Origin: Opitutaceae bacterium EW11
GTDB taxonomy: Bacteria; Verrucomicrobiota; Verrucomicrobiia; Opitutales; Opitutaceae
Length of the DNA: 64,000 bases
Assembly (NCBI GenBank): GCA_003054665.1
Contig: QAYY01000011.1
Span: 656,654-720,653, forward strand
Reading direction: 5' to 3'
The position numbers and the translations under genes were made by a program. Of the stretch, positions 6,957-51,553 are shown piece after piece (position 1 is the stretch's first letter; every line of letters starts with the position of its first letter). The notes under the pieces are model-generated. The model searched no databases and was not told where the DNA came from. It saw only the letters and a program-made list of their open reading frames with translations.

Positions 6957-7808
6957 TCACACGCGCCGGGCTACCCAGAAACGGCATTCGTCGGAAAAAT
7001 CGACGACGGCTCGCGACTCCATGGCAATGTCCCGGCGGAGCATGTCGAACTGCCTTTCCCATCCGGTCGCCGCCAAGTCGGCGAGAATCTCCTCGCGATC
7101 GGGGAGGTGCATGAACGTGCGCCCGGTTGGGTCTTCGAAATACCGGTCGCCGAACTCGACCAGCCGGGGGTCTTGCGTCCCGGAGGCCCAGCGCTCCGCT
7201 TCTTCGCGCCACGCCTGACGCTCTCGAGCGCTCACGTTGCGGTCGTGTGTGGTGAACAGGAACGGCGCTCCGTGTCGGCACACGCGGGCCAGCTGTTGGA
7301 GTGCCGCGCGCCGGTTTGCACGACCGGGAATCTGCATCAGGCCGTTGAACATGAAGAGCGCGCCGTGGAAACGGGGAGGGAAAGGGTCGGACGAGGTTGC
7401 AGGGAGCGCGGGCGTTCCGCCCGCCACCCCAACGGATGTGGCCGGAACGGCCGCGCTCCCAGGGTTCGTCATCGCCTCGTCCAGCTTCGTCGCGTCTGCG
7501 TGGAAAAAATGGATACCGTGCGCACCGCGCTCCTTCGCCAGCGAGCGCGCCTGGTCGAGCAGCTCCTCCGCGAAATCGAATGCCGTGATGTGCCGGAAAC
7601 CCAAATCCCAGAGTCCAATCGTCACCCGGCCCGCGCCGCAGCCCCCCTCGAGAATCTGAGCGTCGCGATCGGGAAAAAAGCGTTCGATCAGGCGGCGCTC
7701 GGACTGCCAGAGCCCAAGAAAATGCGCCGCCCTCGCGTAGTGCACGACCGCGACAGGATCGTTGAAATCCGAGCGAACCGTATCGGAAGTAATTTTTTCA
7801 GGGCCCAC
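6957..7808 (-). CDS. SAM-dependent methyltransferase with an in-frame repeat insertion
   Basis: A class I methyltransferase of 283 residues with motif I ILEGGCGAGR at 52-61, the acidic residue after strand 2 (TAFDFAEELL, about 75-84) and motif FHADATKLDEA at 102-112. The methyl acceptor is unknown. Between motif II and the following strand (residues about 115-139, bases 7392-7466) the protein carries a low-complexity stretch rich in Ala, Pro, Gly and Thr that is encoded by an 18-base inverted repeat; similar proteins would be expected to lack it. The start is GTG at 7808. It is upstream of the E1 gene by about 100 bases and downstream of the RsmB-like gene. Confidence 0.82.
   Translation of the reverse strand: MGPEKITSDTVRSDFNDPVAVVHYARAAHFLGLWQSERRLIERFFPDRDAQILEGGCGAGRVTIGLWDLGFRHITAFDFAEELLDQARSLAKERGAHGIHFFHADATKLDEAMTNPGSAAVPATSVGVAGGTPALPATSSDPFPPRFHGALFMFNGLMQIPGRANRRAALQQLARVCRHGAPFLFTTHDRNVSARERQAWREEAERWASGTQDPRLVEFGDRYFEDPTGRTFMHLPDREEILADLAATGWERQFDMLRRDIAMESRAVVDFSDECRFWVARRV
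7402..7460. repeat. Palindromic REP-like element inside the methyltransferase gene
   Basis: The arm GGGAGCGCGGGCGTTCCG (7402-7419) is complementary to CGGAACGGCCGCGCTCCC (7443-7460) with one mismatch, separated by 23 bases. It is read in frame and adds Ala/Pro/Gly-rich residues to the protein. The 12-base half-site GGAGCGCGGCCG also occurs in the hairpin at 15597-15623. Confidence 0.85.
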
Positions 7809-15596: not shown

Positions 15597-15623
15597 GGAG
15601 CGCGGCCGCCAGAGCCGCGCTCC
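15597..15623. repeat. GC-rich hairpin sharing a half-site with the repeat at 7402-7460
   Basis: GGAGCGCGGC (15597-15606) pairs perfectly with GCCGCGCTCC (15614-15623) over a 7-base loop. It lies between the convergent tlpA-like and mutY genes and is followed on the plus strand by TTCCGTTTTC, so it may also end transcription. Confidence 0.75.
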
Positions 15624-51405: not shown

Positions 51406-51553
51406 TCCGCCGGCGGCACGGCGACGTGCGAGCCGCCCCGCGGGTGTTGCTTTCCGGGGTGTGGCTGTTCTGGGACCAAGCCAAGAGATGCGGGCGGGAT
51501 TGCCCACGATCCCAGCGACGGTGCTGAGCGGAACGGATCCAATTTCTCAGTGC

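Follow-up and report, generated by a model that had tools for sequence, protein, structure and literature searches.

A palindromic unit that would be translated in frame within a methyltransferase gene of Opitutaceae bacterium EW11 is very probably a REPIN-like, non-autonomous element, which entered the gene and has been retained because it is in frame and lies in a flexible loop. A REPIN consists of an inverted pair of REPs and a spacer and is linked to a RAYT (REP-associated tyrosine transposase), and the best-known REPINs are mainly extragenic. The element resembles them in its inverted REP pair, its spacer, and its RAYT linkage, but differs from them by its intragenic site. It lies in a stretch of 64,000 nucleotides, referred to here as the window, and the features are as follows.

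6957-7808, minus strand: SAM-dependent methyltransferase gene hosting the insert (open reading frame of 283 aa, GTG start).
7398-7464, no strand assigned: REPIN-like element, an inverted hairpin pair of ~65 bp (from covariance model, orthologues, and pLDDT).
7402-7424, plus strand: REP half-element, arm 1, foot plus hairpin GCGGGCG-TTC-CGCCCGC (1 mismatch to the half-element consensus).
7425-7437, no strand assigned: 13-base spacer separating the REP arms (positions between the arms).
7438-7460, minus strand: REP half-element, arm 2, the arm-1 consensus on the opposite strand (2 mismatches).

The inverted repeat named in the first-pass annotation (7402-7419 and 7443-7460) was re-read in the sequence, and both its letters and its coordinates are correct. 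Like a REPIN, the element consists of two inverted REP hairpins separated by a short spacer. A covariance model built from nine copies, with the window copy among the nine founders, matches the window at 7400-7464 on the plus strand (80.5 bits) and at 7398-7462 on the minus strand (61.4 bits); both hairpins align to the model, the minus-strand alignment with one non-standard pair. Folded as a single strand, 7398-7464 is far more stable than its shuffled versions (z = -5.5 for DNA and -5.4 for RNA; 0/200 shuffles equally stable). Between the arms there is a compensating G-C to C-G swap, GCGG[G]CG...CG[C]CCGC versus GCGG[C]CG...CG[G]CC(G/A)C, which preserves each local hairpin and introduces a mismatch in the long stem. 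From the sequences, such a pattern would be expected if the recognition unit is the individual REP hairpin. The foot of the EW11 copies is mostly G[GA]AG, as against GT[AG]G in the GTAG superfamily; it is GTAG in the copies of two relatives (G015 and G044) and GTGG in a helicase-gene copy of another (G062).

The host gene was identified by Pfam as Methyltransf_25 (45.2 bits, cut-off 27), and its top Foldseek matches are SAM methyltransferases. Matches to it occur in 25 of 29 genomes, EW11 itself counted. The frame 6957-7808 on the minus strand runs open across the element, as had been proposed, and reads it as residues P116-A137 (PGSAAVPATSVGVAGGTPALPA; ~115-137). The insertion is into the METHYLTRANSFERASE, within a loop that runs from the HADAT strand to the FxGALFMFNG strand and whose length and composition vary strongly from one orthologue to the next. 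The insert residues of EW11 were seen in none of 24 other aligned orthologues, and when the covariance model was run on 80 methyltransferase loci (retained from 118) it found no match within the gene, the sole match, in L185, being outside it. Because the host loop is hypervariable, no exact empty site could be read. In the AlphaFold model of the methyltransferase (31 sequences; mean pLDDT 75.4), pLDDT is below 50 at residues 1-23, 118-139, and 218-221. The second of these stretches is the insert, flanked by helices 106-114/116-119 and strand 149-152; in the predicted protein the insert is in a low-confidence loop.

The same loop holds other palindromes in other genomes. A perfect palindrome with a stem of at least 9 is present in 22 of 80 orthologues, compared with 2 of 1,200 windows from the same gene and 12 of 1,600 shuffled loops. 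The core is TAWTA in 19 of the 22, and the stems covary between genomes (TGTCACGTAATACGTGACA, TGTCATCTATTAGATGACA, AGTAACCTATTAGGTTACT, etc.). Of 61 genomes, 34 contain the pattern TGTCANNTAWTANNTGACA, with as many as 75 sites, and the control gave 0 matches; the EW11 genome has no match to it. Together with its covarying variants, TGTCANNTAWTANNTGACA forms a second, unrelated family of short palindromes that lies in frame in the methyltransferase loop (L115-L194). No RAYT linkage of the TAWTA-core palindrome (stem >= 8) was found at the RAYT loci examined, and a literature search for this palindrome found no relevant report.

A loop of an HrpB-like helicase behaves likewise. From 34 loci, one of which was unparsable and one too short, 32 loops were scored with EW11 included, and 11 have stems of at least 9 (0/480 windows and 4/480 shuffles do so). 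Five of these loops (L336, L338, L344, L357, and L371), from different genera, carry different palindromes with arms of 14-23 bp. One of the eleven palindromes, also among these five, is a copy of the window family, in G062, with 22-bp arms, which the genome-wide search with the covariance model recovered as well; the other ten differ from it. We read the recurrence as survivorship, in which permissive loops are struck repeatedly; target preference may be a cause of it.

Such recurrence, in both enzymes, is what would favor an alternative in which the palindrome is kept for a function of the mRNA hairpin, in translational pausing or RNA stability, beyond mere tolerance by the protein. This alternative is nevertheless unlikely, as many orthologues have no long palindrome, some long loops have none, each genus has palindromes of its own, and the type most often met in the methyltransferase loop is scattered over genomes in the manner of a mobile repeat. 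The REPIN-like reading is strengthened by the distribution of the element's own family.

When the EW11 genome was searched at the DNA level with the element, 43 matches were obtained at E <= 10, and 8 or more of them span most of the element. With the covariance model, the 6.4-Mb genome gave 69 rows over both strands, that is, at least 32 distinct places at E <= 0.1, a lower bound, as 150 of 7,534 first-look candidates were scored. Many dispersed copies within one genome are, again, what a REPIN has. Under stricter filters, the model was run on 61 genomes from this bacterial family, EW11 among them; 27 have matches at E <= 0.01, the richest with 83 rows, and 34 have none. Several of the compared genomes are drafts. 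Repeat-rich relatives are G003 (65 rows), G015 (48), and G044 (63). The first-pass annotation had also placed a half-site of the repeat at 15597-15623. This was not borne out: the region scores only 9.1 bits (E 4.9), and it was rejected as a family member, being a separate, terminator-like structure in which a self-contained 10-bp hairpin is followed by a T-rich tail. Elsewhere in the window, the model matches 51468-51517 with 20.1 bits (E 0.018 for the window), and this may be a short and degenerate relative of the element.

Four of the 32 EW11 copies are in frame within identified protein genes. The coding state around the copies was called by a codon-usage score trained on the window, and by this score 2 copies lie in one open coding frame and 5 in the same frame with a stop, 4 have the same strand and another frame on their two sides, 4 have differing strands, 12 were called coding on a single side, and 5 gave no call. 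The two open in-frame copies are in an ImuB-like gene (L043) and an HrpB-like helicase gene (L050), hosts that are backed by Pfam (IMS, 47.2 bits, and HA2_C, 30.6 bits, respectively). The methyltransferase copy and the one in the RAYT belong to the 12 with a coding call on a single side, and homology was used to place them. In a non-random sample of 42 high-scoring copies from the genomes of seven relatives, 9 are in frame and open, 3 are in frame with a stop, 9 have the same strand and another frame, 8 have differing strands, 12 have coding on one side only, and 1 gave no call. The leading arm is translated as (G/S)-S-(A/T)... in 11 of 13 in-frame copies, the exceptions being L294 and L275. 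Against an expectation of one third per frame, this bias has a binomial probability of ~2e-4, a value that is slightly weakened by a stop in one alternative frame of L289 and L304, and by L275 being perhaps no real gene.

A RAYT, which the REP-like reading of the first-pass annotation calls for, is present in EW11. Pfam Y1_Tnp matches two genes of the genome. One of them, at C3:188,235-188,897 (L114 3236-3898), scores 84.5 bits with NF047646 (REP_Tyr_transpos; cut-off 80) and 27.8 bits with Y1_Tnp (cut-off 23), and has the HuH and Tyr motifs. One copy of the repeat lies upstream, 215 bases before the matched domain (36.5 bits), and another is inside the gene, in frame between the HuH and Tyr motifs (L010 1675-1733, 75.1 bits). 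The covariance model found no copy downstream of this RAYT.

From the listed matches, 44 RAYTs in 17 genomes were examined, a choice that favored genomes rich in the repeat and matches with a late start in the profile. Of these, 10 have model matches on both sides, or inside and on one side or more; a single weak match accompanies 2, and 32 have none. The repeat is on both sides of the RAYT in eight relatives and on both sides as well as inside in G001. An internal REP in frame is present in 2 of the 10 flanked RAYTs (L010 1675-1733 and G001 L225 1491-1556). Several of the flanking matches are weak (18-31 bits). Flanked RAYTs cluster on the tree (3 changes versus a shuffled mean of 9.1, with 0/500 shuffles as low), and they occupy more than one clade. 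No flanked RAYT was found among those examined in the repeat-rich G003 (4 of 7 matches), G015 (1 of 3), and G044 (2 of 6), and our confidence in the REPIN reading is slightly lowered because of it. In G003, a RAYT fragment at C1:4968674 is directly beside a repeat copy at 4968600-4968665.

This linkage bears on another possible origin, in which the element would not be a REPIN linked to a RAYT but would be a MITE belonging to a classical (DDE) insertion sequence or would be related to the Rickettsia palindromic elements. Inverted repeats are common to all of these, and insertion in frame is shared with the Rickettsia elements, which were set beside the EW11 element by description only and are alike in their in-frame translation and different in host; to our knowledge they have no RAYT linkage. 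Such an origin is improbable, since each arm of the EW11 element is itself a hairpin and there are 10 genomes in which the family flanks RAYTs. That a low-complexity Ala/Pro/Gly loop simply expanded locally and became palindromic by chance would suit a loop so variable in length and composition, but it is hardly credible for a unit whose like, with both arms conserved, is found at so many places, genic and non-genic. The proposal of a protein-tolerated, REP-like unit is thus supported by the orthologues that are without the insert, by the number of copies, and by the RAYT-linked family.

Based on these observations, the REPIN-like element could have come into the gene in the following manner. 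A cognate RAYT, an HuH-Y1 single-strand nuclease, would recognize each REP by its foot and hairpin and would copy or move the dimer as single-stranded DNA, probably during replication. The dimer would have entered after the strand that ends in HADAT and before the strand FHGALFMFNG. Most intragenic insertions would be lost, and the survivors would be those of frame-preserving length, which mostly read the arm as Gly-Ser-Ala-Gly-Val-Pro-Pro-Ala, a run of small and neutral residues, and not as the Arg-rich alternatives. Movement driven by the RAYT, translation of the insert, and retained activity of the enzyme are inferred.

In several long open reading frames around the RAYTs of this family, parts of a host enzyme lie on both sides of the transposase. 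These embedded RAYTs were drawn from the best-listed RAYT matches, and the set of chimeras is therefore a lower bound. Chimeras with isochorismate synthase occur in three genera, with the RAYT in the same linker: L262 249-2648 (G005, 800 aa), L263 283-2454 (G034, 724 aa), and L403 1862-3982 (G069, 707 aa). All three score 309-316 bits as isochorismate synthase (TIGR00543, cut-off 225), and L262 and L263 match Pfam Chorismate_bind together with Y1_Tnp. In the chimeras, 256-322 residues separate the two host parts; in the 21 of 28 orthologues that could be parsed by motif, the separation is 22-30 residues in 17 and 42-59 residues in 4. Two of these four longer linkers carry palindromes, with arms of 20 and 14 bp (in the genera of G001 and G055), and the other two have 8- and 7-bp arms, no longer than the arms in short linkers. 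No second isochorismate synthase was found in G005 and G034 among the matches listed, where the other chorismate-part matches are 33-34% identical.

Chimeras with a two-domain creatininase are present in two species of one genus, L231 (G002, 731 aa) and L240 (G060, 744 aa), with Creatininase scores of 277 and 275 bits, respectively, and with Y1_Tnp in both. The RAYT-free creatininase has both halves in one frame, for example of 574 aa in G004 and 550 aa in G055. When the chimeras of G002 and G060 are compared, the sole gap, the N-terminal end aside, is of three codons in the first REP linker, and dN/dS is 0.27 for the N-terminal host part, 0.14 for the RAYT, and 0.17 for the C-terminal host part.

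Alanyl-tRNA synthetase (AlaRS) chimeras were found in three genera as two complete frames and one that is cut by a contig end, with the RAYT and REP-like linkers after the catalytic part. The complete ones are L402 2344-5784 (G037, 1,147 aa, alaS 773 bits) and L404 2218-5598 (G063, 1,127 aa, 795 bits), against a cut-off of 457; the cut one, L408 1947-4136 (G002), has an odd low-complexity start and an alaS score of 343 bits, below that cut-off. In a solved AlaRS chain the matched parts are contiguous (one ends at 427 and the next resumes at 418); in L402 the gap is more than 200 residues. The REP-like linkers of L402 and L404 appear, by eye, to be of another family. On the RAYT tree, which was made without L402 and L404, the RAYT of G002 is on a long separate branch. 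A further frame, L407 333-3104 (G045, 924 aa), joins an adenosine-deaminase-like part, a RAYT, and extra REP-like peptides in frame. Its deaminase score is 131.6 bits, below the cut-off of 216.6, and its N part presumably resembles a CRISPR-associated deaminase.

The RAYT parts of the scanned chimeras score 65.9-79.5 bits with NF047646 by hmmscan (cut-off 80), some being over the cut-off by genome search, and the HuH and Tyr motifs are present in all 8 embedded RAYTs checked. A search of eight loci with Rfam for an intron that could splice out the embedded RAYTs gave 0 matches at the gathering score (known families).

Other long frames were considered separately. A host fusion was rejected for L400, L401, L405, L406, L249, L475, L476, and L477, in which we read the upstream part as an Arg-rich, wrong-frame translation. 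The frame of L474 is 200 aa, and a length of 548 aa belongs to an overlapping match. In L473 2340-4736, a RAYT is at the end of a 799-aa frame, the first part of which may be a restriction-type DNA methylase, and in L256/L478 a RAYT is joined to DUF1638.

The chimeras suggest, with a probability that we consider somewhat better than even, that in this bacterial family reading frames are the home of the REP systems, of the transposase as well as of the short REPINs. The hosts would be made with the RAYT looped out of a permissive linker, an intein-like niche without splicing, and imprecise loss would break a gene that the cell needs. Translation of the RAYT chimeras is suggested by their reading frames.

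REPs in frame are themselves not new. The first-pass annotation considered in-frame elements uncommon, but the available text of Di Nocera et al. 2013 (PMC3733652) already describes them, as GTAG-type REPs and REP dimers inside ORFs, in Opitutus terrae and others, with O. terrae having the most intragenic GTAG repeats; the foot of the EW11 copies is mostly G[GA]AG. The first-pass call was correct, and the event, an in-frame REP dimer, is of a kind already known. The portion of that paper available to us also cites the Rickettsia palindromic elements as palindromes translated in frame inside proteins, and it does not mention whole RAYT genes inside other ORFs. In the accessible part of Quentin et al. 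2018 (PMC6006769), TnpAREP/RAYT subclass 2.4 is described as having REPs that flank the transposase and others inserted in its own frame, as a rule between the HuH and Y motifs, and the EW11 RAYT is alike. The same part of that paper states that a few over-long proteins were discarded as 'gene fusions or annotation errors', whereas here host-enzyme domains flank the RAYT in several long ORFs. An open-access literature search found no report of recurrent other palindromes in the same methyltransferase and HrpB-like loops, and none of whole RAYTs in frame inside AlaRS, isochorismate synthase, creatininase, or adenosine-deaminase-like genes.

An odd palindrome in a single gene thus becomes a test case for the reshaping of proteins by mobile repeats. 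The loops of two conserved enzymes are refilled by palindromes of different kinds, and in three genera a whole transposase sits in the linker of a further enzyme. The part worth following is the transposase genes that lie in frame inside enzyme genes. For annotation there is a warning, as what looks like a long 'fusion' transposase in such a genome can be a host enzyme. Should the chimeras be produced as active enzymes, some RAYTs may persist by being locked inside genes that the cell needs, and such a niche, if true, would help explain the persistence of vertically inherited RAYTs.
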